Shown in pieces: positions 14,893 through 39,222 of a DNA stretch of 56,386 bases. This stretch comes from Acidobacteriaceae bacterium (GTDB lineage: Bacteria; Acidobacteriota; Terriglobia; Terriglobales; Acidobacteriaceae), in the NCBI GenBank assembly GCA_027452245.1, contig DAIDGW010000259.1, positions 1 through 56,386 of the forward strand. Reading direction: 5' to 3'. The notes under the pieces were generated by a model that saw only the letters and a list, made by a program, of their open reading frames with translations, was not told the origin of the DNA and did not search any database. A program made the position numbers and the translations under genes. Numbering within the stretch: the stretch's first letter is position 1; each line of letters begins with the position of its first letter.

Positions 14893-14933
14893 TTGACGGA
14901 AATTTTTCGGTGGGTTGGATTTGGGTCGGCCAC

Positions 14934-14983: not shown

Positions 14984-15084
14984 TTGGGTACGGTGGGTTG
15001 AACCGTTTCGCCGGAAACGAGTTCCAGAATCAGAATTTCATTTCTCCCAGTCCAGTATCGGCTCTAAGATGGAGAGAGACTGTT

Positions 15085-17658: not shown

Positions 17659-18398
17659 GGAATTTTCGCCTTGACGACCGGCGGCACAGTATACTCGCCG
17701 TCGAGAATGGCCTCGCCGGGTTGGTACGCGCGCAGCCAGAGTATGAAGTTGCCCGAGGGCGCGGGCAGCCAGTTGGATTCGTGCCCCGTTGGAGCGGCAT
17801 TCTGGATGAAGATGTCGATTGAACCGTCGGCGCTCGGCAGGAGGCCGGAGCGATCGCTCACACTGTACCGTTTGATCGGATTCGGCACGAAACAATTCCG
17901 GGCCGTACCCATCGTGAGCGACCAGAACGCGTCGTTGGGTGGAAGCTGACCCGCCGGGAAATGCATGACGTAGTCGTGTCGGCCGGAGAGTGCCCCGCCC
18001 GCGCCGTCCGCATTCGTCCACCAGTACATTGCCTCCTCCGGCACGTTGACCGGACCGGGAAACAGTTGGGCGTGCGCGGCCCGCAAGAACATGCCATTGC
18101 CGGGTTTGCCGAGGCCCAACATGGTGATCCAGCCGTTTATCTTCACGGCCTTGATCCTCGCATACGCTTGGGCCGTGACAAACGCCAGTCCGAAGCCGAT
18201 GAGGAAACCCTGTATCACGTCGTTGCGCATCGTTCTCACATGAGTAGAGAAGAAGAGGTGGATGATGAAGTAGGCGCAGAGCGCGCCGATAAATGCCGCG
18301 AAATACGAGAGTGCCCTGCTCATAGTGCCTCTACCTGCTGGTTCAGCGGCGTGAGTTGCTTCTGCGAGAGCGCCACTTGACTTGTCTGTTATATCCAT
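17655..18398 (-). CDS. DUF1214 protein, pair 1
   Basis: From the ATG at 18398 the protein has 247 residues, two hydrophobic segments in the first 90, and a DUF1214 domain. Key runs are FPAGQLPPNDAFWSLTM, FVPNPIKRYSVSDRSGLLP, DIFIQNAAPTGHESNWLPAP and GNFILWLRAYQPG. An internal ATG giving MSRALSYFAAF is a possible alternative start. It is probable that the real start is the later one, because the 18398 ATG lies inside the palindromic operator at 18391-18407, whose -10 box points into this gene. It precedes and is coupled to DUF1254. Confidence 0.82.
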   Translation of the reverse strand: MDITDKSSGALAEATHAAEPAGRGTMSRALSYFAAFIGALCAYFIIHLFFSTHVRTMRNDVIQGFLIGFGLAFVTAQAYARIKAVKINGWITMLGLGKPGNGMFLRAAHAQLFPGPVNVPEEAMYWWTNADGAGGALSGRHDYVMHFPAGQLPPNDAFWSLTMGTARNCFVPNPIKRYSVSDRSGLLPSADGSIDIFIQNAAPTGHESNWLPAPSGNFILWLRAYQPGEAILDGEYTVPPVVKAKIP

Positions 18399-18407
18399 AG
18401 CAGATAT
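18391..18407. promoter_or_regulatory. Regulon operator, site 1
   Basis: ATATCCATAGCAGATAT matches 14 of 17 bases of the consensus shared with six other sites. TTGTCT (18383-18388) and TATAGT (18405-18410) flank it on the plus strand with a 16-bp spacer. On the minus strand TTGCAT and TATAAC give a promoter for DUF1214. Confidence 0.7.
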
Positions 18408-18433
18408 AGTGATGCAATGTCCATCGAGGCCGT

Positions 18434-18562
18434 GTGAAATTCCGCAGTGTTGTCGCTCCCTCCATTGCATTAGCGATCACGGCTTCCATCCTGGTGGGAC
18501 AAATCACCGACAGCTCAGGAACACCTCCTGTCAGTCAGTCCTCGCATATGCGAAATCCGTGA
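18434..18562 (+). pseudogene. Truncated paralogue of the secreted protein at 32804
   Basis: A 42-codon frame starts at GTG 27 bp after operator site 1. Its first residues VKFRSVV and the later GQITDSSGTPPVSQ align with VRFRRVL and GQAADSPGAPSVRQ of the complete protein at 32804-33214, which is likewise placed just after an operator. The remainder of the gene is missing. It is therefore a duplicated, truncated copy. The bases from here to 18733 carry nothing else I recognise. Confidence 0.6.
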
Positions 18563-18733
18563 CCGCCGGCGTTGGAAAACATTCCGCCGAATGTACAAAC
18601 ATTCCATTCCACATCCCGATGAAAGGCGAATAATGCGTCGATTATGCTCCCGCGTGTTTCACTCTGCGCTTGGCCGCAGCGGCATACAGGCGGAACACCT
18701 CCGCGTCTCCGGTCAGCCACTACAATGCCCTGT

Positions 18734-19525
18734 ATGAGTTTTGGCAGCCTGCTACGTCGCTGGCGCGCTGTTCGCCACCTCAGCCAGCTGGACCTGGCAA
18801 ACGATGCGGAGATCTCAACGCGTCATCTGAGTTGCATTGAGACCGGCCGCGCTTCGCCCAGCCGGGAGATGGTGCTGCGTCTTGCCGAGGCGCTGCAGGT
18901 TCCGTTACGCGAGCGCAATGCGTTGCTCCTTGCGGCCGGCTATGCTCCGCTTTACCGTCAGACCAGTCTCGACGCACCCGAACTGGAGGCCGCTCACCAC
19001 GCCGTGGAGCTTCTCTTGACGCAATTGGAGCCGTATCCAGTGCTGCTGCTGGATCGATATTGGAACACCCTGACGATGAACACCGGCGCAAAGCGTTTTC
19101 TCGCCCTCTTTCCCGGTTGTGATTCTGGAACGCCCCACAATGGCGTCCGCCTTGTCTTCGATCCCCAGGGATTGCGGCCGTTCATCGAAAATTGGGAACT
19201 CATCGCCGCACGCATCGTCCGGCGAGTAAGTCACGAAGCTGCCAGCAACCCGGCAGACGAGACGATGAAGCGGTTCCTCGATGAACTGCTCAGCTACCCG
19301 GACGTGCCGAGCCGCTGGTGCATACCCGATTTGCATGGCGCTCATTCGCCGTTCCTGACCATCAACTATCGATGGAATAACTCGATCCTTCGGTTGTTTT
19401 CTGTACTCAGCACCTTGGGCACGCCGCTGGACGTTGCTCTCCAGGAACTGCGAATAGAAACCTTTTTCCCTGCAGATGAAGCCACTCGCGCTGTGATGAG
19501 TTGCCTGGCCGAAGCAACGGTCTGA
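18734..19525 (+). CDS. XRE helix-turn-helix regulator with MmyB-like sensor domain
   Basis: The 263-residue protein has an XRE helix-turn-helix at residues 3-60 (LLRRWRAVRHLSQLDLAN, STRHLSCIETGRASPS). An MmyB/PAS-like ligand domain follows, with AGYAPLYRQTSL, VLLLDRYWNTLTMN and LTINYRWNNSILRLFSVLST. Members often bind a small lipid and control a neighbouring oxidoreductase gene. An alternative ATG lies three codons upstream. It faces away from the DUF1214 operon, so it may be read from operator site 1 or from its own promoter. Confidence 0.85.
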   Translation: MSFGSLLRRWRAVRHLSQLDLANDAEISTRHLSCIETGRASPSREMVLRLAEALQVPLRERNALLLAAGYAPLYRQTSLDAPELEAAHHAVELLLTQLEPYPVLLLDRYWNTLTMNTGAKRFLALFPGCDSGTPHNGVRLVFDPQGLRPFIENWELIAARIVRRVSHEAASNPADETMKRFLDELLSYPDVPSRWCIPDLHGAHSPFLTINYRWNNSILRLFSVLSTLGTPLDVALQELRIETFFPADEATRAVMSCLAEATV

Positions 19526-19556
19526 CATCTAAACGCTCCACTGCGGCGGGTTTCTT

Positions 19557-19575
19557 CATGACCTCCGAGGTCATG
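19557..19575. promoter_or_regulatory. 19-bp perfect palindrome
   Basis: CATGACCTC and GAGGTCATG flank one base. It lies between the XRE gene and the following NTF2-like gene, 75 bp upstream of the latter's start. Either an operator for that gene or a terminator without a strict T-tract (GTTTTTG follows 8 bp later). Confidence 0.5.
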
Positions 19576-19649
19576 GACAATGTTTTTGCTCCGTTGAATA
19601 GTAATTCTTGGATCTCCTGATCCGCTAAATCGAGTTGGAGAGACAGCAG

Positions 19650-20111
19650 ATGAAAAAGTTAGTGACGATACTGTTCGCCTGTGTATGCGTTGGACTGGTT
19701 TCGGCTCAATCAGCCAAGGCGCCTTCAAATGATTCAAGTGCCGCCGATATGTTTAAACAAATGACCCAGGATTGGGAAGACGCAACTCAGGCCCGCGATG
19801 TCGATAAGGTAAGTCAGATCGAGGCAGATGATTTGAGGATCGTTGGGTCCGATGGCAAGGTTTGGACCAAAGAGAACGATTTGGACGGCATCAGATCCGG
19901 TAAGGTCAAACATGTGCAAGCCGATTTGGGACCTATCGACGTGAAAATGTTAGGCGACGATGTTGCCGTGGTCCAGGGCACACTGACCGACAAGTCTGTC
20001 GCGGACGCACGCAATGTCACTGCTAAATCGGTGTATGCCTACATAGACGTTTGGGTGAAGCGCGGAGACAAATGGATGGTCGTCCGCTCCCAATACTTCC
20101 GCGTAAAGTGA
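19650..20111 (+). CDS. Secreted NTF2-like (SnoaL/DUF4440) protein
   Basis: The 153-residue protein starts at an ATG behind GGAGAGA. It has a signal peptide (residues 1-20, ending VSAQS). The mature part has the cone-shaped NTF2 fold pattern: an N-terminal helix MTQDWEDATQARDVDKV, IVGSDGKVWTKEND, and the final strands SVYAYIDVWVKRGDKWMVV. DUF4440 proteins bind or turn over small hydrophobic ligands; no specific activity can be assigned. Confidence 0.8.
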   Translation: MKKLVTILFACVCVGLVSAQSAKAPSNDSSAADMFKQMTQDWEDATQARDVDKVSQIEADDLRIVGSDGKVWTKENDLDGIRSGKVKHVQADLGPIDVKMLGDDVAVVQGTLTDKSVADARNVTAKSVYAYIDVWVKRGDKWMVVRSQYFRVK

Positions 20112-20305
20112 GCGTGCTTCGCAACTGTATCTCGCCGCGACCCATCATCGCTGACATTTGCAATCTTCTATATGCTTCGGCGACCAGATGTCGACTAACT
20201 TCTACCTGCTACGGATTTACAAGCTGCATGCAGGCAACGAGCAGCACTTGCCGGGGTCTTGGGGCAAAGCGTCATGAACAAATACCGGAAAGAGGAACGG
20301 CTAAA

Positions 20306-21160
20306 GTGACTCAACATCTGAAGGACTTCTCACCAGTGCGGCTCGTGAATCTCGCGCTTGGCGCCGGAAGGTTCGTGTTCTCCGTCGCGATTGTTGCGTT
20401 GGGCAGCGAAACCCTGCTGTGTGCACGGTATGCTGATAACCCGCACGGCCGTAGTTGTAGTTATAGAGTGATCCCAGTCATTCCCTGGCTTCCCGCTATT
20501 CCCTGGCTCGCTTGTTTCTTCGGAGCAATTGTTGTGGCGTGCGGAGCAGGTCTCCTGCTCAAGCGCACCGCGCGATCTTCGTCGTTGGTCTTGGGGAGCC
20601 TTTTCTTCTTGTGCGCGCTGATTCTTGACTTGCCGAATTATGCTCACGATCTCGGCAACATGGGATTGCGCACCGAAGTTTTTGAGCCTCTGTCACTCGC
20701 TGCCCTGGCCTGGCTTTCAGTCGGTGACCTTGCGATTCCGGGTTGGCTCACACGCGGAGCCCGTTATGTGCTGGGGGTTTCTCTCGTCGTCTTCGGAGTT
20801 GATCACTTTATAGGGGTCGTCTTTATCGCCACGCTGGTTCCCACATGGATACCCTGGCGGGAATTCTGGGTCGGGATCTCCGGCGTGGTCTTCATTGTTG
20901 CGGGAATCGCGATCGGCTTGAAGACTCTGCAAACATGGGGCGCATTTGTGCTGGGCTTGATGTTTGCCGTCTGGGTATTCACTCTTCATCTGCCGAGGGT
21001 TCTGGGTCTCTACGGCATTCCAGGAGCCCCCCACAACCCCAACGAGTGGTCGAGTCTATTTATTGCCGTGGCGCTTTGGGGAGGTCCATGGGTCATTGCC
21101 CGGCCCGCCAAAGCACCTAAAGCATCGTCCTTGGATTCAAACGCTGTTCAGGTGCCATAA
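20306..21160 (+). CDS. DoxX-like multi-pass membrane protein
   Basis: The start is the GTG at 20306 behind AGAGGAAC; the longer open frame overlaps the previous gene and is not protein-like. The 284-residue product has about eight hydrophobic segments with short loops. Examples are FVFSVAIVALGSE, WLACFFGAIVVACGAGLLL, VLGVSLVVFGVDHFI and FWVGISGVVFIVAGIAIGL. Repeated G-x-x-R/D positions and paired four-helix units resemble DoxX/DUF4149-like proteins. Function unknown. Confidence 0.72.
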   Translation: MTQHLKDFSPVRLVNLALGAGRFVFSVAIVALGSETLLCARYADNPHGRSCSYRVIPVIPWLPAIPWLACFFGAIVVACGAGLLLKRTARSSSLVLGSLFFLCALILDLPNYAHDLGNMGLRTEVFEPLSLAALAWLSVGDLAIPGWLTRGARYVLGVSLVVFGVDHFIGVVFIATLVPTWIPWREFWVGISGVVFIVAGIAIGLKTLQTWGAFVLGLMFAVWVFTLHLPRVLGLYGIPGAPHNPNEWSSLFIAVALWGGPWVIARPAKAPKASSLDSNAVQVP

Positions 21161-21254
21161 AGTCTGAGACAGCCTGTCGCCGTTCGCGTGGCGAACCGCA
21201 TGCTACAGGTTGCTCACCAATCGATGATGAGGAAATGGCTTCAGAATTCCTTTG

Positions 21255-21411
21255 TCAGGTATAACGAGCAACGGGTACCTTTGGCGCGGTTCTCTCCACG
21301 GCTTGTATCTGGCTCTTTTCACATACGCATAAAACCAGCGTGAGTTCCTGCGAGGCCAGATACAGACCCACGATATCGCGCACCTTCTGGCGATCACGCG
21401 GACCGTAGCCG
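21255..21411 (-). pseudogene. IS630-family transposase fragment
   Basis: The minus-strand frame reads GPRDRQKVRDIVGLYL, then LVLCVCEKSQIQAVERTAP, before a stop at 21255. This matches the part of IS630 transposases that carries the DEKSQIQAL motif, with the catalytic aspartate replaced by cysteine. Neither end of an IS remains. It abuts the 3' end of the hydrolase gene. Confidence 0.7.
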
Positions 21412-22215
21412 TCAAAGACCCCTTACAAAAGCGTCTGCAAGTTGATGCACGTAAGGCGCGGTGTAAATGTTGGCGTGTCCGGCGCCGGAAATGACGACCG
21501 GCTCAACACCCAGGACACGACGCGCCGCCGACTGTTCCCACTCGGGCCGAATCTGATCGTCAGCCGAACCCGAAACATCTACGTTATCGACGCTCGGGAG
21601 CGCCTTCAAGGGGCAGACTTCGTAAAAACCAACTATGGCATGGGCAGATGGCGAGGCGTCGATGCGCTCCTGCATCGCTTTGAACTGTGCCTTCGTTGTA
21701 TTGGGATCGTTGACGAGTCTGAGAAAATCGTCCGTGATGCTTTGAGAAGCCTTGAGCAGCCGGTCGAGAAAGCTTCCCGGAACAGCGACCTGCTCGGTTT
21801 GGCAGATTTCGATGAATGCCTTGCCAGGAAGCGGGATGGCGGCATTGACATAGACGAGCCGTCTGACGGGACGCGCCGCCGCGACCAGAGGCAGGAAATT
21901 ACCCTCGTTCGATGTTCCGACAATCACAACTCTATCAGTGACGCCTTGAAGCGCTTTAACAACTGAAGAAGCGCGATCTTCATTGGGCGTGTTGGAACCC
22001 CGTACAGAGCTGTGTACGAGCATCGACGGGAAGCCTCGATTCTCCAATTCGGCAAGGATTGGGCGGTAAGCCCGGTCTATCACACCGCCGACGGAACCGG
22101 AAACGTGAAAGACAAACCTGGTCGCAGCGTTGACCTCCGCTGTCAGGCCATGTACTGCCGTCCATGCAAGCCCTGATAATCCAGTTGCCAAGAAGGTCCT
22201 TCGCTGAAGTTTCAT
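21412..22215 (-). CDS. Tat-exported alpha/beta hydrolase
   Basis: The 267-residue protein opens with a twin-arginine-type signal (KLQRRTFLATGLSGLAW). The hydrolase core has the nucleophile serine in IVGTSNEGNFLP (about residue 100), an aspartate candidate in SGSADDQIRPEWE and the late histidine in VISGAGHANIY. Length and motif order fit small esterase/lipase-like alpha/beta hydrolases. It is read leftward from operator site 2. Its 3' end meets an IS630 remnant, so the last residues may not be original. Confidence 0.82.
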   Translation of the reverse strand: MKLQRRTFLATGLSGLAWTAVHGLTAEVNAATRFVFHVSGSVGGVIDRAYRPILAELENRGFPSMLVHSSVRGSNTPNEDRASSVVKALQGVTDRVVIVGTSNEGNFLPLVAAARPVRRLVYVNAAIPLPGKAFIEICQTEQVAVPGSFLDRLLKASQSITDDFLRLVNDPNTTKAQFKAMQERIDASPSAHAIVGFYEVCPLKALPSVDNVDVSGSADDQIRPEWEQSAARRVLGVEPVVISGAGHANIYTAPYVHQLADAFVRGL

Positions 22216-22300
22216 TGACTCCCCTCAATTACCCACGAAGCTTTGTTTAGAGCAAGGAAGCGATTTGGTGTCGCTCTCGTGTGGCCGCTGTTTGCATTAT

Positions 22301-22317
22301 ATAACCGTAGCGGATAT
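22301..22317. promoter_or_regulatory. Regulon operator, site 2 (divergent)
   Basis: ATAACCGTAGCGGATAT fits the consensus except at two positions. On the plus strand TTGCAT (22292-22297) and TATAGT (22315-22320) are 17 bp apart, aimed at the sigma-like gene. On the minus strand TATAAT follows the palindrome and is aimed at the hydrolase. Confidence 0.75.
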
Positions 22318-22402
22318 AGTAAACAATAATACGCCAGAGCCTCGCGGCGTTGGAAAGTGTGACGTTCGCCAGGGCATACCATTCCTGTCACACAAGCATT
22401 GG

Positions 22403-22480
22403 CCCTGTGCACAGGGGAGCAGGAATCTGTGAATCGTGACGACTGAGGTGCGCTGGCCTCCTCTTTCAGCGAGTCGCTGA
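22403..22480. promoter_or_regulatory. Two palindromes in the leader of the sigma-like gene
   Basis: CCCTGTGCACAGGG at 22403-22416 is a perfect 14-bp palindrome. TCAGCGA and TCGCTGA at 22466-22480 pair around one base. Both lie in the 220-bp leader between operator site 2 and the GTG start at 22542, so the transcript leader may be folded or bound by a second regulator. Confidence 0.45.
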
Positions 22481-22541
22481 GCGGATATTGAGACCGCAGT
22501 TTACCGTCGTGTCCCACGAGGGGGAACGAAAGGACCACGAA

Positions 22542-23117
22542 GTGAAACAGTCGGTTGCCAACAGTTCGTTAAGTCAATACGCAACGTCAGAGGACTTCCA
22601 CCGGGTATTCGATCAGGACAGGCGCAGTTTGCATCGTTTGTCTCTGCTCTTAACGGTGGTTGAAGACATGGCTGAACGGTGTGTTCGGTCAGCTCTCGAA
22701 GAGTGCATCACAGTCAATGGCGTCTTCAGGAAGTTTGCTACGTCGTGGGCTCGGCGCAGTGTTATTACAAACGCGATTCGCTTCACGGACATGAGAGAGA
22801 ACCTTCCTTCATCGCCTATCCAGAGAGTTTTCATGGCTGATGCTTCTCTCGCCGAATCTCAGGCGATTTGCGTTAGTGCTCTTCAGAATCTACAGCGTTT
22901 TGTGTTCGTTATGTCCGCCCTCGAACAATATACCGATCACGAATGTTCCATCCTATTGCGCTGTTCATATCACGATGTGTGTGAGGCACGAACACTGGCA
23001 TTTCGGCATATCGAAGGAGCTTGCGGGCTATCTGTGAGGGAATACGTTCCGAGTCTTCGAGCATGGCTAGCTTGCTCCAGGGAGTCAGGGAGTGACCAGA
23101 TGCACGCTACAGTCTGA
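22542..23117 (+). CDS. Divergent sigma-factor-like protein
   Basis: The start is taken as GTG 22542 behind GAAAGGA, giving 191 residues. It has the pattern of a group of acidobacterial sigma-70-like proteins: DFHRVFDQDRRSLHRLSLL, AERCVRSALEEC, FATSWARRSVITNAIR, and a region-4-like part FVMSALEQYTDHECSILL followed by SYHDVCEARTLAFRHI. The last part is the helix-turn-helix expected to read a -35 box. No anti-sigma gene is adjacent. It shares operator site 2 with the divergent hydrolase. Confidence 0.72.
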   Translation: MKQSVANSSLSQYATSEDFHRVFDQDRRSLHRLSLLLTVVEDMAERCVRSALEECITVNGVFRKFATSWARRSVITNAIRFTDMRENLPSSPIQRVFMADASLAESQAICVSALQNLQRFVFVMSALEQYTDHECSILLRCSYHDVCEARTLAFRHIEGACGLSVREYVPSLRAWLACSRESGSDQMHATV

Positions 23118-23294
23118 TGGATTTGGCCTGCCCGGTATTTGTACCAGTAGACGAGTTAGTGTAGCGCAACTGTGAAGATGTTATTGGCCAGTCGCAGCTA
23201 CCGGGGGTTTGGGAAGGCGGGCAACATAGCGCGACACCCTTTGTTGTGGTGCCGTCAGAGTATGTGCAGGTCGGAGATCTGCCCGGAGGTTTCG

Positions 23295-24065: not shown

Positions 24066-24244
24066 GGCCCGTTCGCCTAAACGCTGTTTGTCCGGTCCTA
24101 GAATCCATTGCATCGGCAGCAAGGACCAACAGTTGCAAGCGACACTTGGCGTTCAAAAGTATGGCAACGCCGGGATCTCCGAAGTGAGGGATCCGCCATG
24201 CTATTTACCAGAGTGTGTACGTAAACCATCAATAGGAGGAAATA

Positions 24245-24493: not shown

Positions 24494-24543
24494 TTTCGTA
24501 ATTCGGAGCTTTGATCTTTGTCAAACGGATGGTTCCTTTATAC

Positions 24544-26454
24544 CTAATGACTCTTCACCGGCAATTCCAAAAAAGACGACCATCCGGCCTCACGATAGAC
24601 GGTCCAAACAGGCGTGCCCGTGGCTGGATAGCGCTGGAACAGCCCTGCATCAGCTCCAGCCATCGCAATTCGGATTGAATGTCCCTTTTTCAACAACAAT
24701 GAAGTTGGCAGTAGTGCTAGCCGGATTGTTGCAATCTCCCCCGGGTTCATGGGTTCTGCATCCTTTCGAAGAAAACTGTGAGCTGGGCCGAGCGGCACGT
24801 AAGGTAAGCTCCTCGGATCCACTTCTTTTCGATCGATCAAGCGAAGGATCCCTTCGTCGAGGTACGTCACCCGACCCGTCGGCGCCACATCTTCCAGGTA
24901 TGCATGGACCGCGCCGTCGCTTCTGGTGGAACTCATTACGAGCGTCAGCACTGGCGTCCCGGTGATCTCCAGATCGCTTCGGAGAGGATCGCTCGTGTAT
25001 GAAAGAAGTTTGTTGTCTTCCGTTCGGAGGTCAGGATATACCACATCCCCACCGCCAAGTTGTGTTTGCCAACGCGTTTGCGTTCCACTTGATGCGGAGT
25101 AATCGACAATATAGGCATCGCTACCCACGCGCGTCGCCGGTGAAATTGGCTTCAATGCGTGACCTTCGGTGAAATACAGTGCTTCATTCTGTAATCCGCG
25201 CGGGGGCCACACCGAGGTTGTGTGCCACTTTCCTTCACCCATGGTGTAGTAATGAATTGAGGATTCGATCTTCGGCGCCACTTGATCTCGCAGTGTTTGA
25301 TCGAAGAAATCTGCTTCCATTTTGAACTGCTCTTCACGAGTGGGGACGGGAGGTAGATGTTTCGCAGCAAAGGGATCGACATTGAAGCTGCCTCCATGAG
25401 AGAGCGGCCCGATCACTACCACTTGTGGATTGGAGAAGGTGCGGTACCGGATGAGCGCTCCTTGACAGGAATTCGCATCCAGCCAGCCACACCAGACCAT
25501 CATCGGTACATGCGACGTTTCGATCCGTTCGCGCAGCCCATACGGGCTTATGTCAGCGAAGCGGACTGGGCCCGTCTGTGTGGCCAGTTCATCATCCCGG
25601 AATTCAACTTTGCCTAATGCCTCGGCAATATTGAGGTTGTGGTGCGCGGCCACCGCCGTGGCGAGAAATTTACCGTTACGGTCCGCATCGACGCGCTGCA
25701 CTCCAGGGATCGTCTGCCGGTCCTTCCAGCAGGCCCACCCTCTCACGTCGTCGACGCCGCATATATCGTCACTGTCTAGCGCTGCAACCAATTTGCTCCA
25801 TTGATCAATGAATCCGCGAAGGGTAACTCCCCCTGGCTCGATAAGCTCTTGAGGATCGAAATCATCGTATTGTGGCATTACTGCACGGATTGTCGGCTGA
25901 CCAGTTGCAGCCGCTAATTCTGCATCGTTGCCGTCGTACGAGACACCGAAGGTTCCCACGCGTCCATTGGACCAAGGTTCTTTGGCTGCCCACGCAGCCA
26001 CTTCGCCCATATCTGCGACCTCTTCAGGCGAAAATTCCACTCGACGGTAGCCACTTGAGGCCCCGCTCCCACGAGCATCCGCAACGATTACAGCGAATCG
26101 CCTCTTATTAAAGTACGCGACCTCTTCGTCCACAAGAGTTGATGGACTGACGAAATGCAGCGCCACCATCACCCTGAGTCCCCACCCTACTTCTTCGCTC
26201 CGCCAATATCGTGTTGTTCGCATCAGGACGGGGACTCGCTCCCCAGCCCGCAAATCGCGCGGCAGGAAAACAGTCACCGCAATCCTTACCCCGTCGCGCA
26301 TTCTGATGTACACGGAACTGCTCTCTCGAAAACCAGCGGGCGTCATTGCCGAGCCGGGGAACTCGGTGGAAGTGGTCGTGATTGTACTATAGGCGATGCC
26401 AGCCAAAGCGATTCCAACCATTCCCATTGCAACCCATTTCATCCTGCGCAGCAT
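24544..26454 (-). CDS. CocE/NonD-type X-prolyl dipeptidyl-peptidase family hydrolase
   Basis: The 636-residue protein has an N-terminal membrane anchor or signal (residues 1-24). An S15-type hydrolase domain follows: YIRMRDGVRIAVTVFLPRD, VADARGSGASSGYR and the nucleophile serine in VGTFGVSYDGND at about residue 172. The catalytic histidine is in VVIGPLSHGGSF near 357. The C-terminal beta-sandwich (LRSDLEITGTPVLTLVMSS) is the usual X-Pro/cocaine-esterase cap. It would hydrolyse esters or amides outside the cytoplasm. It is transcribed 9 bp behind the TetR gene, so it is the likely target of that repressor. Confidence 0.88.
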   Translation of the reverse strand: MLRRMKWVAMGMVGIALAGIAYSTITTTSTEFPGSAMTPAGFRESSSVYIRMRDGVRIAVTVFLPRDLRAGERVPVLMRTTRYWRSEEVGWGLRVMVALHFVSPSTLVDEEVAYFNKRRFAVIVADARGSGASSGYRRVEFSPEEVADMGEVAAWAAKEPWSNGRVGTFGVSYDGNDAELAAATGQPTIRAVMPQYDDFDPQELIEPGGVTLRGFIDQWSKLVAALDSDDICGVDDVRGWACWKDRQTIPGVQRVDADRNGKFLATAVAAHHNLNIAEALGKVEFRDDELATQTGPVRFADISPYGLRERIETSHVPMMVWCGWLDANSCQGALIRYRTFSNPQVVVIGPLSHGGSFNVDPFAAKHLPPVPTREEQFKMEADFFDQTLRDQVAPKIESSIHYYTMGEGKWHTTSVWPPRGLQNEALYFTEGHALKPISPATRVGSDAYIVDYSASSGTQTRWQTQLGGGDVVYPDLRTEDNKLLSYTSDPLRSDLEITGTPVLTLVMSSTRSDGAVHAYLEDVAPTGRVTYLDEGILRLIDRKEVDPRSLPYVPLGPAHSFLRKDAEPMNPGEIATIRLALLPTSLLLKKGHSIRIAMAGADAGLFQRYPATGTPVWTVYREAGWSSFLELPVKSH

Positions 26455-26463
26455 GATTCTGAA

Positions 26464-27090
26464 TCACCCTCCTTCTCCCTTCAGAACTGGCTTGGCCGCC
26501 CTTCTCCTCCCGGTTGGCGAACCTCTTCTCTGTCTTCGAGATTCGCCTGCATGTCCGTCAACGGACTCAAGTAGCAAGCGTGCGATAATGGGAAATCTCT
26601 TCCGCGACTCGGGCACACGTTGCCCACGCGCCACGAAGCCAATCCATACGAGGTAGAAGAGCTCCATACGATTACGGCCGCCGACAAGGTGCTGTAGCTG
26701 CCGGATTCGCGTTTGTTCAGCCTTATCGACGCGGCGAGCGACCTCGGGATCCACGGATGCCCACGCAAAAATCGCCGCATCCGATGGTGTCTTCCCACCT
26801 TCGCTCAGCCTCACACGCTCCTCCAGTAGCCGAAGGAAGACGTCCAACTTGTCGCCTCTTGATCGCTTTTCCAGTTGAGTGAGGAGGCCGTGCAACTCGT
26901 CTTCCCATTCCTGGAGAAGTAATTCGAGCAATTCTTCGCGGTCCTTGAAATGCCAATAGAAGCTTCCTTTTGTGACTTTAAGCGCGCGAGCGAGCTTCTC
27001 TACCCGCACTTGCTCAACGCCGCCGCGTAACAGGGCTAGTCGGGCAGCGTGCAACCAGTCTTCGCGTCCAAGGTTGGTGTCCATACGCAT
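26464..27090 (-). CDS. TetR-family repressor
   Basis: The 208-residue protein has the TetR helix-turn-helix at about residues 27-60 (VRVEKLARALKVTKGSFYWH, FKDREELLELLLQEW) and an alpha-helical ligand domain. The ATG is at 27090, or two codons later at 27084. The nearer operator copy overlaps this start. Gene order TetR then hydrolase, with operators in front, implies autoregulated induction of the hydrolase by its substrate or product. Confidence 0.88.
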   Translation of the reverse strand: MRMDTNLGREDWLHAARLALLRGGVEQVRVEKLARALKVTKGSFYWHFKDREELLELLLQEWEDELHGLLTQLEKRSRGDKLDVFLRLLEERVRLSEGGKTPSDAAIFAWASVDPEVARRVDKAEQTRIRQLQHLVGGRNRMELFYLVWIGFVARGQRVPESRKRFPIIARLLLESVDGHAGESRRQRRGSPTGRRRAAKPVLKGEGG

Positions 27091-27137
27091 CCGTATGGTA
27101 TGCCACGGTGCAATCGAAGGTCAATACGCATCCGTAT
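27082..27137. promoter_or_regulatory. Paired TetR operators
   Basis: ATACGCATCCGTAT occurs at 27083-27096 and again at 27124-27137. Each is a palindrome of ATACG and CGTAT around CATC, and the centres are 41 bp apart, close to four helical turns. The first covers the TetR start codon. Two such sites would let one repressor block both initiation of transcription and its own translation start. Confidence 0.78.
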
Positions 27138-27455
27138 GGTTGAGAACCCTTTGGGAGAAGGGCGCCATACTTTTCGGAAGTATGCTCTCGGCCTGGATCG
27201 ATTGGGTGACATAGACATCGCCACCGAGTTCAAGCCAAAGATTGCCAGTAATGCCGAGTTTCAACAGATGTTGTCGCCCGACAGTGCGTGGCCGCAGAAC
27301 AAGGCAGACACTTCGGTTCCACCTTCATTGGGCTATATGGCCGCGCACGGAGGTTTTGCTTTTCCTCCAGCCGCGCTCCCTCACTCTCAATAGATCGAGC
27401 AAACTCTCGAATATTCCACTCCAGTAGTGCACAGTCTCCTTGTCACGCATTGACT

Positions 27456-27472
27456 ATATCTGTAACGGATAT
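27456..27472. promoter_or_regulatory. Regulon operator, site 3
   Basis: ATATCTGTAACGGATAT matches the consensus fully. It fills the 16-bp gap between TTGACT (27450-27455) and TATACT (27472-27477), a near-consensus sigma-70-type promoter reading rightward to the secreted protein at 27626. Confidence 0.8.
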
Positions 27473-27506
27473 ATACTGTAACCATGAACAGCTTGAGGGG
27501 AGCCAT

Positions 27507-27569
27507 ATGCTCGAACATCACAAGAATCGAGGCTCTGAGGTACGAATAGCGTTCCGGCTGCGACTATGA
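27507..27569 (+). CDS. Possible 20-residue leader peptide
   Basis: An ATG eight bases after GAGGGGAG opens a 20-codon frame (MLEHHKNRGSEVRIAFRLRL) that lies 30 bp behind the promoter at site 3 and 57 bp before the next gene. The ribosome binding site is strong, but the frame is short and could be chance. Confidence 0.3.
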   Translation: MLEHHKNRGSEVRIAFRLRL

Positions 27570-27625
27570 CCAAATGCCCACCAGGGAAAACTGTACACGC
27601 ATGACGAACCGCAAAAGGAGGTTAC

Positions 27626-28735
27626 TTGCAGCAGCTTTTCACATGTCTCCTGCTTTTCGGACTATCGGTCACGACCGTTTCGCTGCAAGCGCAGAATTCA
27701 GGCAACGGAACATTCGCCTCGGCAGCATCGTCTTTGATGGAATCGCAGACGACACAAAGCGCACCGTTACCCAGTGCGCCATCAACCTCAGAAGGGAGAT
27801 CGGCCAGTGTGTCAGGAGCCGTGCTGGACGTAAGCGGAGCCGCGATGTCAGGGGCGGAGGTCACTTTGACGGAGATCGGCAATTCGCAACAACGCTCAAC
27901 CTCAACTGGGCCAGACGGCAACTTTACCTTCAGCGGTCTCCCTTCCGGTTCCTACAGAATCGTTGCCACGGCCAGCAATTTTCAGAAGGTCACATCTGCA
28001 CAGTTCACACTCACGCAGAATCAGAGATATCAGGCTTCCAATATTGTGCTTTCGGTCGTGACGACATCCACAGAGGTTGTCGTTCGGCCCACGGAAGTGA
28101 TTGCGGCTCAGCAGATGAAAGCGGAGGAAAAGCAGCGTCTGCTTGGCGTCATTCCCGATTTTTATACCAGTTACATCTGGGATGCGGCCCCGCTCGATAC
28201 CAAGCAAAAATTTTCTCTTGCCTTTCGTGACACCTTCGATCCCGCTACCTTCGTTGGCGTCAGCATTGGGGCAGGATTCCAGCAGGCGACTGACGCCTTT
28301 TCCGGATATGGGCAAGGCGCGCAAGGGTACGGCAAAAGGTGGGGCGCGCTGTTTGCCAATGGACGCACCAGCGACATTCTGAGCAGGGCGGTATTCCCCT
28401 CGCTCTTCCATCAAGACCCGCGTTACTTTTACCAGGGAACCGGCTCCACCTGGTCTCGCACAAAACATGCGGTCGGCTATGCGTTTGTTGCCCGCAGCGA
28501 TAGTGGACATCTCATGCCGAACTACTCCTACTTTCTCGGCGATCTATGTTCGGGCGCGATTTCCAATGCTTATTATCCTTCGTCGAATCGAGGGGCAAGC
28601 CTGGTTTTCACCAACGCCGCCATCGGTCTTGCAGGACGCGCTGGACAGGATCTCGTACGCGAATTCGTCTCCAAACGTTTGACAACACATGTGCCTGGCA
28701 ATGGAAAACCCGCAGTCAGTAGCGGAAATCCGTGA
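27626..28735 (+). CDS. Secreted protein with carboxypeptidase-regulatory-like domain
   Basis: The start is TTG, chosen because AAAGGAGG lies five bases upstream and an N-terminal signal sequence follows (LFTCLLLFGLSVTTVSLQAQ). Residues 60-150 form a CarboxypepD_reg-like beta-sandwich: VSGAVLDVSGAAMSGAEVTL, GPDGNFTFSGLPSGSYRI. The rest, to residue 369, has glycine-rich segments with no TonB-receptor barrel. Acidobacteria have many such proteins at the cell surface. It is transcribed from site 3. Confidence 0.8.
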   Translation: MQQLFTCLLLFGLSVTTVSLQAQNSGNGTFASAASSLMESQTTQSAPLPSAPSTSEGRSASVSGAVLDVSGAAMSGAEVTLTEIGNSQQRSTSTGPDGNFTFSGLPSGSYRIVATASNFQKVTSAQFTLTQNQRYQASNIVLSVVTTSTEVVVRPTEVIAAQQMKAEEKQRLLGVIPDFYTSYIWDAAPLDTKQKFSLAFRDTFDPATFVGVSIGAGFQQATDAFSGYGQGAQGYGKRWGALFANGRTSDILSRAVFPSLFHQDPRYFYQGTGSTWSRTKHAVGYAFVARSDSGHLMPNYSYFLGDLCSGAISNAYYPSSNRGASLVFTNAAIGLAGRAGQDLVREFVSKRLTTHVPGNGKPAVSSGNP

Positions 28736-28990
28736 CAGCGCGGGACGCACAACCCACAGAGGGCAATGCTCTAGCGAGCAGATACGCGCTGTAGAGGTAT
28801 TCACGATGAAGTGGCCGCGCTACATCCACATCGATTCGATAGCCGATTTGTTCAGTTCCCGCAGAGCGCGTTAAACTCTGAATTCCAGTATTCGCAGCAG
28901 GTAAGCAAAGGTACCGCTGACTTTGCTCCAGATGTTCCCGCCGATGAAGAGTATGGCGGAGCATTCTGACGCAACCGTGCGTCTCCATTA
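28736..28990. other. Non-coding gap with degraded transposon DNA
   Basis: No gene is supported. The right part (from about 28915) still reads faintly like the N-terminal region of an IS5-type transposase with a stop, continuous with the clearer fragment that follows. Confidence 0.4.
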
Positions 28991-29160
28991 TGTCTGCCAG
29001 TTTCAACGCACTGCTGTATGTGGCCGAGCACGGATGCAAGTGGCGCGGACTGCCGAAGCGGTGCAGCAACTGACACACCATCTACACGCGGATGAACCTG
29101 GAGGGGCACAGATTCAGAAACTCATCGCGCCACTCGATCGGGGACGTGTGCATTCCTTTG
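28991..29160 (+). pseudogene. IS5-family transposase fragment
   Basis: The plus frame reads FNALLYVAEHGCKWRGLPKR, hits a stop, and continues HTIYTRMN. This matches the conserved N-terminal block of IS5-group transposases (GCKWRGLP, then WHTIYTRMNRW) with one nonsense codon and missing ends. It records a past insertion between the secreted protein and the next operator-controlled unit. Confidence 0.72.
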
Positions 29161-29181
29161 CAGACCTCTTGCTGCATTGAG

Positions 29182-29655
29182 TCACACCATCTTCCCGTTG
29201 CAACGGTGATTCCGTTCGTGCTCCAGCAAGGACCATTCATCCTTCGCGGAAGCAACCATTTCTTCGCACTTCAGACATAGCGAACCGATGTCGCCATGCT
29301 CATTTAGCGAATGCTTAAACTGCCGGGCAACCTGTTCATTTCCGCAAGACCGCTTGCCACATGGCTGGGCGTCCGAGATTCCATTTCCGGCTTGCTGTTT
29401 GTTCGTTCTCTGCATTGGCGACCCCGCCGCTATTTTGATTGTTGGTGCGGCTCGACTTTGGCGAAGGCGACCGCAATGAAATGCTACGAGGCAGCCGAAG
29501 GCCCAGGCTATAAGAATCCACTCATACGGAGTATAGCGACAAAACGCTCCCAGCACTGCGATGCCGCCAACATCCACGACAACAAACGTGGCTGTTGCAA
29601 CCCATCCGGCGGCCGAATGGAGGCCGATACCCCATCGCTGATCCGGTTGCTCCAT
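29182..29655 (-). CDS. Two-helix membrane protein with C-terminal Cys/His motif
   Basis: The 157-residue frame has two membrane segments (GWVATATFVVVDVGGIAVLG and EWILIAWAFGCLVAFHCG), a basic linker, and an end with two cysteines and two histidines (SLCLKCEEMVASAKDEWSLL, then EHERNH), resembling a zinc-binding hairpin. It is in the same reading frame as the 41-codon frame upstream, separated by TGA at 29674-29676, and has no good ribosome binding site of its own. It may be the second part of one broken gene. Confidence 0.5.
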   Translation of the reverse strand: MEQPDQRWGIGLHSAAGWVATATFVVVDVGGIAVLGAFCRYTPYEWILIAWAFGCLVAFHCGRLRQSRAAPTIKIAAGSPMQRTNKQQAGNGISDAQPCGKRSCGNEQVARQFKHSLNEHGDIGSLCLKCEEMVASAKDEWSLLEHERNHRCNGKMV

Positions 29656-29673
29656 CCAAACCGATAATGCTGG

Positions 29674-29799
29674 TCAGCCACCGGTGGGCCTCCTTACGTA
29701 CGTGTTGTTCGAGCCGGTTTCACCTTGGGCAGGCGCTTTGACGAAAGATTTGTACAGCGCTGCCGGGATGAGCGGAACGATTGGATCGGATTTCGTCAT
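29674..29799 (-). CDS. 41-codon frame directly behind operator site 4
   Basis: The ATG at 29799 lies just after a TATAAT box that adjoins operator site 4. The peptide begins MTKSDPIVPLIPAALYKSF and ends at a TGA that is in frame with the membrane protein downstream. It is either a leader peptide or the 5' part of a gene cut by a nonsense mutation. Confidence 0.45.
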   Translation of the reverse strand: MTKSDPIVPLIPAALYKSFVKAPAQGETGSNNTYVRRPTGG

Positions 29800-29810
29800 G
29801 CTTGCATTAT

Positions 29811-29827
29811 ATATCCGTAATGGATAT
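29811..29827. promoter_or_regulatory. Regulon operator, site 4 (divergent)
   Basis: ATATCCGTAATGGATAT differs from the consensus by one base. Plus strand: TTGCAT (29802-29807), 17 bp, TATACT (29825-29830), toward DUF1214 pair 2. Minus strand: TTCAGT, 16 bp, TATAAT, toward the 41-codon frame. Confidence 0.78.
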
Positions 29828-29887
29828 ACTGAATATGGGGAGTTCAGGCCCCTCACAGAATGAGTATGGTGATTCGGTAATTGACGC

Positions 29888-30544
29888 ATGATGGAACAGA
29901 ACACAGTACAACCCCACCGTTCGCAAGAACCTACCCGAAGCTCTGGATTGCTCGCCTTCCTATGGCGGCGGAACATCGTCTCAGACGTTGTGCAGGGCAT
30001 CATCGTTGGCGGTGTGCTGGCGTTCATCACATTCCAGATCATCGCGCAGACCTACGTCACAAAAGTCAACGGCTGGACCACCATGCTCGGATGCGGCCAG
30101 CCGGGAGCTGGCATTCTCATGCGCGGCGTTTGTGGCGACATATTCCCGGGCCCAATAAACGTGCCACAAGAGGCGATGTACTGGCACACGAACAAAGATG
30201 ATGCGGGCCAAACACTCTCCGGCCACCACGACTACATCATGCACTTTCCGGCAGGACAGCTCCCACCGAACGATGCGTTCTGGTCACTCACGATGGGCGA
30301 CACGAAAAATCGCTTTGTGCCGAATCCGATCAACCGGTACAGCGTGAGCGACCGCTCCGGCCTCCTGCCGAATGCCGACGGTGCCGTCGACATTTACATA
30401 CAAAATGCCGCTCCGGCAGGCCATGAGTTCAATTGGCTGCCCGCACCCTCAGGCAACTTCATACTCAGGTTGCGGGTTTATCTGCCCGGATCAGCCATTC
30501 TGGACGGCAAATACAAGGTGCCGCCTGTTGTCGAGACACGGTGA
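29888..30544 (+). CDS. DUF1214 protein, pair 2
   Basis: The 218-residue protein has a short cytoplasmic N-terminus, one membrane segment (IVSDVVQGIIVGGVLAFITF) and the DUF1214 domain: FPAGQLPPNDAFWSLTMGD, FVPNPINRYSVSDRSGLLP, IYIQNAAPAGHEFNWLPAP. It is plainly a paralogue of 17655-18398 and shares its gene order. It is read from operator site 4 and is followed by DUF1254 after 8 bp. Function unknown. Confidence 0.85.
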   Translation: MMEQNTVQPHRSQEPTRSSGLLAFLWRRNIVSDVVQGIIVGGVLAFITFQIIAQTYVTKVNGWTTMLGCGQPGAGILMRGVCGDIFPGPINVPQEAMYWHTNKDDAGQTLSGHHDYIMHFPAGQLPPNDAFWSLTMGDTKNRFVPNPINRYSVSDRSGLLPNADGAVDIYIQNAAPAGHEFNWLPAPSGNFILRLRVYLPGSAILDGKYKVPPVVETR

Positions 30545-30552
30545 TATCGCCA

Positions 30553-31143
30553 ATGAAACACAAGCATCTCATCATATTCGGTTCGGTCATGGTTGTGGCA
30601 TGGGTGGCCGGCACTTTCCTGTTCATCTTCTTCTGGCCGCACCTCGTGAGCAACCACTTCAAGAGGGCGATCCTCGTCAAAGGGTTCGGCGACGGCCCTG
30701 TTCCGATCAATACCCTCTATACCGAGTCCCAAAAACTCTTTGCCGAACCCCTCCACACATCGCTGCCGCACGGAAGTTCGAATTTGGCGACTGTTGGCGT
30801 GAACCACGACACGCTCCTTACGGGTGGCTGGTTGGACCTCAGTAAAGGTCCGCTGGTTTTGCATGTGCCAGATTTCTTCGGGCGCTATTACAGCGTGCAG
30901 TTCACCGACCCGTTTGACGACGACTTCGCCTATGTCGGTACGCGCACCACGGGGACCCAGGCTGGCGACTACTTCATTACTGGCCCGGATTGGAAAGGGC
31001 AGGTACCGAGCGGCATGAAGCAGATATCCTCGCCGGACAACTCGGTGCTTGTGCTCGGTCGCATCCTTGTCTACAGCGACAGCGATCTCCCGACTGCCTA
31101 TAATCTTGCGAAACAAATCCGGCTCACGCCTCGGGGCAATTGA
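30553..31143 (+). CDS. DUF1254 protein, pair 2
   Basis: The 196-residue protein has an N-terminal membrane segment (LIIFGSVMVVAWVAGTFLFI) and the DUF1254 core: VNHDTLLTGGWLDLSKGP, LVLHVPDFFGRYYSVQFTD, FAYVGTRTTGT, FITGPDWKGQVPSGM. It has the same length as its paralogue at 17068-17658. The two anchored subunits most likely form one complex on the outside of the inner membrane, as the two domains do in fused family members. Confidence 0.85.
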   Translation: MKHKHLIIFGSVMVVAWVAGTFLFIFFWPHLVSNHFKRAILVKGFGDGPVPINTLYTESQKLFAEPLHTSLPHGSSNLATVGVNHDTLLTGGWLDLSKGPLVLHVPDFFGRYYSVQFTDPFDDDFAYVGTRTTGTQAGDYFITGPDWKGQVPSGMKQISSPDNSVLVLGRILVYSDSDLPTAYNLAKQIRLTPRGN

Positions 31144-31276
31144 CGGGTCGTTCTCGGTCCGGCCAGGGGGGTACCTCTTGAGGCCGCGAACCTCCGCAGC
31201 TTTCGTCCAGACAGGCGGCATACGCGACAGCCACACGAAGCCGATATTTCCCGGATGCGGGCACGGAGACTTGACT

Positions 31277-31293
31277 ACATCCGCAACAGATAT
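31277..31293. promoter_or_regulatory. Regulon operator, site 5, in the PadR promoter
   Basis: ACATCCGCAACAGATAT fills the 16-bp space between TTGACT (31271-31276) and TATAAT (31293-31298); the PadR ATG is 7 bp after the -10 box. It is the most degenerate plus-strand site (three changes), which would suit weak autoregulation. Confidence 0.75.
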
Positions 31294-31304
31294 ATAATGA
31301 TCCC

Positions 31305-31628
31305 ATGAGTAAGGCGAAATCTGCCGGGCCGCTAACGCCGGCTGTATTCCACATCCTTTTGGCCCTTTATCGCCGGGAGCGCCACGGCTATGACATCATG
31401 CTCCAGGTCAAGGAGGACTCACGCGGTCAGGTGAAGATGGGCCCCGGAACGCTGTACGGCTCGCTCGATCGAATGATCGGGGCCGGTCTCGTCGTCGAGA
31501 GCAATAAGCAGGATCCACGCAGGATTTACTATAAGCTTACGGCGCTCGGACAGGCTGCCTTGCGTGCGGAGAGCGAACGGCTCTCGTCGGTCGCGGCTAT
31601 GGCTCGCCGTCATCTGGGAGCGACGTAA
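31305..31628 (+). CDS. PadR-family repressor, likely regulator of the operator set
   Basis: The 107-residue protein is a winged-helix PadR: LTPAVFHILLALYRRERHGY (recognition region HGYDIM), VKMGPGTLYGSLDRMIGAGL, RRIYYKLTALGQAALRAE. Acidobacteria carry many PadR proteins, usually next to membrane-protein genes, as here. A palindromic operator sits in its own promoter, and six matching sites lie in other promoters nearby. Assignment of those sites to this protein is inference; two LysR, two XRE and one TetR gene in the window are alternatives. The start codon is only 7 bp after the -10 box, so the mRNA is nearly leaderless. Confidence 0.88.
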   Translation: MSKAKSAGPLTPAVFHILLALYRRERHGYDIMLQVKEDSRGQVKMGPGTLYGSLDRMIGAGLVVESNKQDPRRIYYKLTALGQAALRAESERLSSVAAMARRHLGAT

Positions 31629-31632
31629 CCTC

Positions 31633-32202
31633 ATGCCGCAACAGAGACAGTGCGGAAGGTCCCGCTCGCTCGCCATCTACGGGCTGCTGCTGGAGCTTTA
31701 TCCGCGTACATATCTGCGGCGGCATCGCGAGGAATTGCTGCAGAACTTCCAGGATCTCGAACGGGACTCGCCCTCCACCGCTGCGCTCTGGTGCTTCATC
31801 CTCAAGGACATGGCCGTCAGCCTGCGGTCCGAGTTCATCCGGACATTCTGGGGGCAGACCATGGTTGTCTTCATGATATTGAGCCTGCTGCTGGGAATCG
31901 CGCACAGGCATCCCGGGAAGCCTGAACCGTACATCTGGAGCTGCTTTTTCGGATATGCGCTCGGATGGTTTGCCGGGTGGTTCGGCCGGGATTGGCGGAT
32001 GAGTTCGAGTAGTCGATTTCCCAACTTTGTCAGGTCATTCCGCGGACAAGCGACAATGCTCCTCTGCGTGATCACCATTGTGCTCACCACATCGGCGCTC
32101 TTCCCAGACCTCCAAGAGCGCCTCGTGCTCGCCTCCTGCTACGGGGCCGCGCTCGCCTGGTTCAGCGGATGGTGGAAAAACTATCGGCGCATGCGCCTAT
32201 GA
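31633..32202 (+). CDS. PadR-associated membrane protein
   Basis: The ATG at 31633 follows the PadR stop by 4 bp. The 189-residue protein has a cytoplasmic N-terminal domain (LAIYGLLLELYPRTYLRRHR, EELLQNFQDLERDS) and then four hydrophobic segments (MVVFMILSLLLGIA, SCFFGYALGWFAGWF, ATMLLCVITIVLTTSALF, CYGAALAWFSGWW). The N-terminal pattern is the one found in front of many acidobacterial FtsX-type permeases, here without the permease. It probably modulates PadR or senses the membrane; that is inference. Confidence 0.78.
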   Translation: MPQQRQCGRSRSLAIYGLLLELYPRTYLRRHREELLQNFQDLERDSPSTAALWCFILKDMAVSLRSEFIRTFWGQTMVVFMILSLLLGIAHRHPGKPEPYIWSCFFGYALGWFAGWFGRDWRMSSSSRFPNFVRSFRGQATMLLCVITIVLTTSALFPDLQERLVLASCYGAALAWFSGWWKNYRRMRL

Positions 32203-32361
32203 GGCCGCTCCGGGTCCGCTCGTTCCATTGTTGATGCCTGTCTGAATCGCTGTTCGTGACACGAGCTAATCCGTCGCCTTACTTGAGCGCGAGGCATTCC
32301 CCGCTCTACATCGAGACGTCCGTCTCTGCCGAAACGTCGCTGATTTGCGGGCTCATCACTT
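32203..32361. other. Gap after the PadR operon
   Basis: Nothing recognised. The region from 32203 to 32803 as a whole contains only the pseudogene and two operators listed separately. Confidence 0.4.
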
Positions 32362-32529
32362 CTATCGGAACAGATGCATGGCTATGTACATTGCGAGCAT
32401 TCCGAGAAGAAATCCGAGCGAAGTGCATTCCATCCTCCCGAGCTTCGCAGTACCACCAATCAGAAAGGAAATCCAATTCGCCAGCGGGAGAACGCCGAGA
32501 ACTTACAGCTAGAGGTGACGACCTTTCAT
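32362..32529 (-). pseudogene. Broken small membrane-protein gene
   Basis: From the ATG at 32529 the minus frame reads six codons, meets TAG and, two codons later, TAA, and then stays open in the same frame through clear membrane segments (ANWISFLIGGTAKLG, LGFLLGMLAMYIAMHLF) to a final TAG. It is 93 bp behind operator site 6, whose minus-strand -10 (TATGAT) points at it. It is a decayed former member of the regulon. Confidence 0.55.
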
Positions 32530-32621
32530 ATGTGATGTCCGCGATGAGTCGCGTGAGCTGTGAAGAGGTCGAAAATGCCTTCGGAATCGGAGGCCTCCGA
32601 ATATTTTGCAGCCGAAATCAT

Positions 32622-32638
32622 ATATCTGTCACGGACAT
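32622..32638. promoter_or_regulatory. Regulon operator, site 6
   Basis: ATATCTGTCACGGACAT matches the consensus except for two positions. No intact gene is now next to it; the leftward neighbour is the broken membrane-protein gene. Confidence 0.68.
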
Positions 32639-32760
32639 ACAGTCAGGCAGTCGCGTACCCGTAAATCTCTGATCCTTCGCCAGCCAGCAGCCTGGCTCGT
32701 CAGAGTGCGGGCGAATCGATCCACGCGTTTGTATTCGTAGCATCCTTGACTTGCGTCTGC

Positions 32761-32777
32761 ATATCCGTAACGGATAT
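32761..32777. promoter_or_regulatory. Regulon operator, site 7
   Basis: ATATCCGTAACGGATAT is the exact consensus palindrome. TATAGT (32775-32780) follows it and TTGCGT (32751-32756) precedes it by 18 bp, giving a plus-strand promoter 24 bp before the secreted-protein gene. Confidence 0.8.
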
Positions 32778-39097: not shown

Positions 39098-39222
39098 GGC
39101 GTCTCCCTTCGGTGATGTGAAATGAATCTTCGATGGATCGTTCGCAGATGCTCCACGCATCCGCCGATGATCCGTAACTGATCTCCTCTGCGTCCGGCCC
39201 GCATCGGACTCTGACCGGTGAA

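Follow-up and report, generated by a model that had tools for sequence, protein, structure and literature searches.

The canonical operator of PadR-family regulators reads ATGT-N8-ACAT, with 10 bases between the half-sites in lmrCD (PMC4517056, PMC3506622, PMC5428041). The cdPadR1 protein of Clostridioides difficile recognizes TACT-N11/12-AGTA, an operator whose core is AT-rich and whose spacing is loose, and 200 matches to this motif are predicted genome-wide (PMC5050560). Here we describe a candidate PadR operator, a 17-bp palindrome occurring seven times in 56,386 nucleotides of an Acidobacteriaceae bacterium (GCA_027452245.1, contig DAIDGW010000259.1; the whole stretch is hereafter the window), together with a padR gene at 31305..31628 (+ strand). 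Judged from sequence, the palindrome 5'-(ACT)ATATCCGTNACGGATAT(AGT) is very probably the operator of this PadR protein, which would repress its own and neighbouring promoters and be carried with its targets as a unit. An earlier note on this DNA had proposed a promoter-embedded PadR operator defining a regulon, and the confinement of the sites to one contig, their link to padR across phyla and the recurrence of targets elsewhere argue for that proposal.

The padR product, a 107-aa winged-helix regulator and the predicted binder, belongs to the PadR family (PF03551, E 9.4e-16; 58 bits vs a gathering score of 27). Its AlphaFold2 (AF2) model, with a mean pLDDT of 90.5, contains a helix at residues 47-59 that by its position would be the recognition helix (helix 3), and a long C-terminal helix at residues 80-104, as the PadR family requires for dimerization. 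The best matches in a fold search were LmrR entries, the closest solved fold being an LmrR variant (9h9y, query TM 0.74), and cdPadR1 was also listed. TIGR03433 (padR_acidobact, NCBIfam) covers the same superfamily, and at 50.6 bits vs a cut-off of 101.8 the window PadR is not a member of it.

Like LmrR of Lactococcus lactis, the system in the window combines a PadR winged helix, predicted autoregulation and a palindrome whose half-site tips span about 16-18 bp. Unlike LmrR, its tips read ATAT-N9-ATAT with inner CCG/CGG in an odd, 17-bp palindrome, its best sites have the operator filling the whole -35/-10 spacer, and the predicted targets are not a multidrug pump; the sites do not conform to ATGT-N8-ACAT, and ATGT or ACAT appears only as a variant half, for example at 31277 and in an alphaproteobacterial locus (L069). 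With cdPadR1 it shares a PadR protein and an operator lying over the regulator's own predicted -35/-10 region (PMC5050560), whereas the window sites form a single local cluster instead of matches spread genome-wide. Both sequence marks of an autoregulated regulon are present, an operator at padR's own promoter and the same operator at other targets conserved in relatives. The system would work like the LmrR/PadR repressors with a variant operator.

A literature search, with subscription papers outside its scope, yielded no description of the palindrome or of a PadR regulon of DUF1214/DUF1254 genes among the matches listed; the operator 17-mers, one 16-mer and one degenerate form were not found, nor was a paper naming PadR together with DUF1254, and among the matches listed for PadR and Acidobacteria no title concerned PadR regulation in that phylum. 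Recognition codes have been published for LacI, GntR and IclR (PMC2978694, PMC4494728, PMC8222616), and none for PadR was among the matches listed. For DUF1214/DUF1254 proteins, the locus provides a regulon that can be tested and a candidate for their regulator; it also supplies a clean operator for a well-populated PadR group (6,235 proteins match the window PadR at E <=0.001).

Seven sites confined to one contig

Near-palindromes of 17 bp with the pattern ATATCYGTAACGGATAT lie at 18391, 22301, 27456, 29811, 31277, 32622 and 32761. All seven sites claimed in the earlier note were recovered, their mismatches on the better strand being, in ascending order, 0, 0, 1, 2, 2, 3 and 3, against a chance expectation of 0.06 matches in the window (100 shuffles; largest 2). 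An eighth match with 3 mismatches, at 39223, was set aside as an operator; it falls within an open reading frame (ORF; 38789-39319) and is probably due to chance. In the whole genome (6.23 Mb, 274 contigs), searched as the earlier note had suggested, every one of the five sites with 0-2 mismatches to ATATCCGTNACGGATAT was in the window, and at 3 mismatches 12 of 15 sites lay outside it and form the background; a reversed-pattern control gave five sites across the genome. Therefore, the operator set is a local regulon and not a genome-wide repeat, and a genome-wide regulon was rejected on the same count. A motif spread over the genome without relation to PadR genes, which the earlier note had named as refuting its proposal, was not what the search showed.

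Two weight matrices, both built from relatives, ranked the window sites first. A position weight matrix (PWM) was derived from 33 padR-proximal sites of relatives, with the window sites left out, and gave the seven sites scores of 20.9-30.4; the runners-up were 39223 within the window (19.1) and, among 367,162 further bases from this genome, C53:8396 (19.8), which was set aside because it lies inside two mechanical ORFs. The second matrix was built on palindromes chosen by symmetry alone (the best 17-bp palindrome <=120 bp upstream of padR, with >=7/8 pairs), with no use of the motif of the earlier note. Such a palindrome was present upstream of padR in 32/51 relatives vs 3/51 equal stretches inside the gene, the relatives being 22 named loci and 29 loci from a phylum search with padR matches in 169/396 genomes. 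The consensus of these 32 palindromes was ATATCCGTAACGGATAT, and the window's seven sites again ranked first (19.6-26.9), followed by scores of 17.4 in the window and 17.5 in the 367-kb background. The genome's own TIGR03433 member resides on another contig (C223), which has no site of this kind (best PWM score 9.8).

Promoter boxes frame the palindrome closely at the best sites. At 27456..27472 (+; PWM 27.9, symmetry-only 24.9) and 31277..31293 (+; 20.9 and 20.0), palindrome bases 1-16 are the exact spacer of TTGACT-16-TATACT and TTGACT-16-TATAAT, respectively, and the T that ends the palindrome opens the -10 box. The same arrangement recurs on the minus strand at 22301..22317 (no strand assigned; 21.5 and 19.6), where TTTACT-16-TATAAT reads to an alpha/beta hydrolase gene; the plus strand there holds TTTGCA-18-TATAGT. 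The earlier statement that at the best sites the palindrome fills a 16-17 bp spacer is thus exact at these three, at 16 bp, and does not extend to all seven. Its companion, that one palindrome is the promoter of the padR gene at 31305, was borne out by sequence at 31277, and the same layout is found in relatives, where TTGAC begins <=10 bp 5' of the palindrome in 19/33 (0.17 expected from local sequence). The padR ATG comes only 11 bp after this palindrome, the candidate autoregulatory operator, so that the padR message is probably leaderless.

The promoter at 27456 reads to the gene of a CarboxypepD_reg protein. At 29811..29827 (no strand assigned; 27.9 and 25.9), TTGCAT-17-TATACT can be read by eye, and the promoter scan, at its threshold of 4+4 matches to the -35/-10 boxes, listed none; on the plus side lies the first DUF1214/DUF1254 pair, and on the minus side a 41-aa ORF and a 157-aa ORF. 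The boxes are poorer, or absent on the expected strand, at the other three sites. The highest-scoring of all, 32761..32777 (+; 30.4 and 26.9), is a perfect half-site pair 26 bp ahead of the GTG of a secreted-protein gene and has no listed plus-strand promoter. It is preceded by 139 bp by the site at 32622..32638 (no strand assigned; 21.7 and 20.2), where promoter pairs were listed on the minus strand only (e.g. CTGACT-18-TATGAT), toward no obvious gene. The remaining site, ATATCCATAGCAGATAT at 18391..18407 (no strand assigned; 23.1 and 21.5), has TTGTCT-17-TATAGT on the plus strand, the second DUF1214/DUF1254 pair on its minus side (ATG 18323, 67 bp away) and a decayed copy of the 32804 secreted-protein gene on its plus side.

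The sites at 18391 and 32622 are less certain, and it is a real possibility, though one we lean against, that only 27456, 29811, 31277, 32761 and 22301 work and that these two are relics, which would be compatible with a PadR operator. The lack of a promoter toward a gene at 32622 and the decayed plus-side gene of 18391 would fit this; on the other hand, both sites outscore the entire genome background with both matrices, and also 31277 and 22301 with the symmetry-only matrix, and 18391 is 67 bp before an intact DUF1214 start. The decayed copy itself (18434-18562) corresponds to the beginning of the 32804 gene, has an operator of its own and adjoins the second DUF1214/DUF1254 pair; it marks an old duplication of this segment of the regulon.

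From this layout we infer a repressor circuit. A PadR dimer would bind the palindrome, with helix 3 reading the inner bases of each half-site, and because the best sites place the operator between the two promoter boxes (-35 and -10), bound PadR would sterically shut RNA polymerase out. PadR would in this way repress its own promoter (negative autoregulation) together with nearby genes, namely those for DUF1214/DUF1254 proteins, the hydrolase and the envelope or secreted proteins, until a ligand or signal, perhaps relayed by the membrane-like protein encoded downstream, releases it. That PadR instead binds and activates, or bends promoters with an odd spacer, is unlikely. The usual promoter spacer is 17 bp, and the 16 bp seen here, one shorter, would suit such a role. 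A positive PadR-like regulator, PrhP of Ralstonia, has also been reported (PMC6804342). Against this, both boxes are touched by the operator at the best sites and match well there (TTGACT, TATAAT), and the protein with the nearest solved fold, LmrR, has been described as a repressor that sits on promoter/operator regions (PMC5428041).

The operator in other genomes

Searches in relatives, likewise suggested earlier, showed that the operator accompanies padR genes across phyla. A site scoring >=13/16 was found within 200 bp upstream of padR in 33/51 relatives, with named hosts including Methylocapsa, Bradyrhizobium, a Bryobacterales, Chloroflexota, a Gammaproteobacterium, a Limisphaerales and candidate-phylum metagenome-assembled genomes (MAGs), host names that are to be read with the caveat that contigs of MAGs may be misassigned. 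Over 112 padR loci, the window included (30 from the phylum search, 60 further stretches and the 22 named loci, taken from the best matches listed), >=9/10 bases of ATATC/GATAT occurred upstream in 59 vs 0/112 equal stretches inside the gene; 12 of these 59 sites lay exactly 28 bp, and 16 lay 27-29 bp, before the first aligned codon. Whole-genome searches of 20 named padR genomes returned 20 sites with 0-1 mismatch, 18 of them in the fetched padR loci. Of the remaining two, one (G415) precedes a second padR homologue and the other (G403:C5:191486) was set aside as lying inside mechanical ORFs; a 2-mismatch site (G401:C767) is also within an ORF. In single-copy genomes, the palindrome sits at padR. 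Six loci (L013, L016, L023, L030, L060 and L082) carry two tandem operators before padR, 15 bp apart and overlapping, perhaps for cooperative binding.

At least two target sets are conserved with the operator beside PadR in unrelated genomes. In a Chloroflexota MAG (L065), a perfect operator precedes DUF1214-DUF1254 and a second one precedes padR; in Acidicapsa dinghuensis (L066), a single operator heads DUF1214-DUF1254-padR-partner; and in the alphaproteobacterial MAG (L069), a good operator and a weaker one stand before the gene of a hydrolase 76% identical to that of the window, with a further operator before padR. The proposed regulon therefore recurs in its DUF1214/DUF1254 and hydrolase parts, while the 'sigma-like factor' (22488-23117) that the earlier note had counted in has no Pfam match and reaches 17.7 bits with a SigE model vs a cut-off of 141.55, and its assignment is weakly supported. 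A tie of the operator to DUF1214 itself was rejected: outside the window, 22 loci with DUF1214 homologues, among them the genome's own copy on C23, had no site scoring >=13, and no PadR-like match was found in the DNA examined at these loci. The operator therefore follows the regulator. The C23 copy (L150, G000:C23) is a third DUF1214 homologue of the same genome, 65% identical and without an operator.

The DUF1214 and DUF1254 proteins of pair 1 are encoded at 29888..30544 (+; PF06742, 5e-34) and 30553..31143 (+; PF06863, 1.6e-40). In pair 2, the DUF1214 gene lies at 17655..18323 (-; PF06742, 4.8e-32), with its ATG at 18323 rather than 18470, and the ORF holding its DUF1254 partner at 17068..18021 (-) was recognized by tblastn matches with the DUF1254 regions in L065 and L066; because the upstream part of this ORF runs over the DUF1214 gene in a different frame, the true start is probably further in. 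Further predicted targets are the alpha/beta hydrolase (21412..22215, -; PF12697, 2.5e-06), with a possible signal peptide by eye, the CarboxypepD_reg-domain protein (27626..28735, +; PF13620, 5.9e-18), a predicted envelope protein, and a small protein with a signal-peptide-like start by eye (32804..33214, +), which lies under the operators at 32622 and 32761. Homologues of the last (E <=0.001) occur in 101/396 genomes of the phylum sample, the genome itself counted, and were set aside as a footprint for being too distant (identity up to 42% among the matches listed).

The inner bases of the operator appear to vary with helix 3 of PadR. Many of the 112 padR loci conserve the outer ATATC/GATAT frame, and the inner bases differ. 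Among the positions tested at 57 sites, residues 55, 56 and 52, all in helix 3, were most associated with operator position 7, and residues 57 and 53 with position 6. Proteins with R52, which fall at three separate places in the tree, had A at position 7 of >=1 half in 10/10 cases vs 7/63 without R52 (73 sites with >=8 frame bases; Fisher p 3e-8, with no correction for kinship). These associations suggest that PadR operators may be predictable from helix 3. Several points temper them: when positions 6-7 are taken together as a two-base feature, the first and second ranks go to residues 38 and 25, which lie outside the helix; the association counts are not fully corrected for relatedness; the best site per locus was chosen by the frame itself; and 14/24 R52 rows were dropped for having no usable scaffold site. 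We therefore advance only tentatively, at somewhat short of an even chance, the wider proposal that many soil-bacterial PadRs share the scaffold ATATC-N7-GATAT in a promoter spacer, with inner bases set by residues 52, 53, 55 and 56 as a recognition code, and that a compact unit of promoter, operator and leaderless padR travels with varied cargo between phyla, each regulon being private within its genome.

It is very unlikely that another regulator of the window binds the sites and that padR is merely a target, even though genes for an XRE/MLTR protein (at 18644), a TetR protein (at 26467) and LysR proteins (at 15873 and 33517) lie within the same cluster and two of the padR loci (L071 and L073) hold an XRE relative. 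In the DNA examined of the 22 named padR loci, XRE was present in two, TetR in one (29% identity) and LysR in none, so that none is consistent, whereas padR and the operator occur together across phyla and the operator classes follow PadR helix 3. It is hardly credible that the palindromes arose as copies of some small repeat element or as a side effect of gene duplication: 18391 and 32761 do lie in duplicated DNA (67% identity over 165 bp spanning site and gene), but flanks shared by the other sites stop within 27-39 bp at the operator, save for a weak 47-bp match away from it, which argues against copies of a repeat element, and the palindrome sits at padR in single-copy genomes.

Binding of the palindrome by the PadR protein as its operator has several observations to contend with. 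The site at padR itself is the weakest of the seven by PWM (20.9) and the second weakest by the symmetry-only matrix. The 33 sites that trained the PWM were picked by likeness to the consensus of the earlier note, a bias for which the symmetry-only matrix is the remedy, and the control stretches inside genes were not matched for base composition. A hexamer with >=5 matches to TATAAT at palindrome position 15-18 was seen in 25/33 relatives, a figure that lacks a control and owes something to the TAT within the palindrome itself. No site scoring >=13 was found at 18/51 relatives, 16 of which are <50% identical (tblastn), and a near relative (L066, 78%) has no padR site of its own; there, padR follows DUF1254 in one apparent operon with the operator at the operon head. 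In the 396-genome phylum sample, only 9/34 non-window sites with the exact scaffold ATATCNGTNNCNGATAT adjoin padR. Of the 25 sites away from padR, 23 were examined (G173:C5 and G088:C3 being left out) and 22 fell in open frames of >=150 codons; 3/6 padR-adjacent scaffold sites did so as well, and this test separates chance from function weakly. Finally, only two target sets, DUF1214-DUF1254 and the hydrolase, were confirmed elsewhere, and the CarboxypepD_reg and 32804 genes as targets rest on the window.

The contig as a setting

Regulator and predicted targets stand together on the 56-kb contig, which also carries coupling-protein, VirB4- and VirB8-like genes, a serine recombinase and a tyrosine recombinase, as well as a T2SSE match that we take to be a VirB11-like gene. 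Given these conjugation and recombinase genes, the contig is likely a conjugative plasmid or integrative element, and the regulon probably moves as a unit, which would make it an example of mobile cargo that may carry its own private regulation. Among plasmid records, 78 matched the PadR protein, every one at <60% identity, and a direct plasmid carrier was not found among them. Of the protein matches listed for the window PadR, one with 92% identity is entered as Terracidiphilus, in keeping with an origin in Acidobacteriota.

Immediately after padR lies a gene for a small protein that is membrane-like by eye (31633..32202, +), for which no Pfam or NCBIfam match was found. By tblastn, this partner is present in 13/22 named padR loci (L065-L078 except L077) and is divergent in L065. 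It may take part in sensing or be no more than a further target.

Other genes of the window include a C5 cytosine methylase adjoining an AspBHI/Mrr-type endonuclease gene (8133-10269) and a further C5 methylase (43375-45228). A two-gene unit at 10712-14208 encodes a 717-aa protein, each end of which matches a GHKL-type ATPase domain, and a 447-aa partner for which Pfam gave no match. A UPF0175-DUF3368 pair lies at 14893-15857 and presumably resembles a toxin-antitoxin-type pair. Within the region of the operators, a Peptidase S15/PepX_C-type hydrolase gene adjoins the TetR regulator gene (24544-27090) and has no PadR-type operator.

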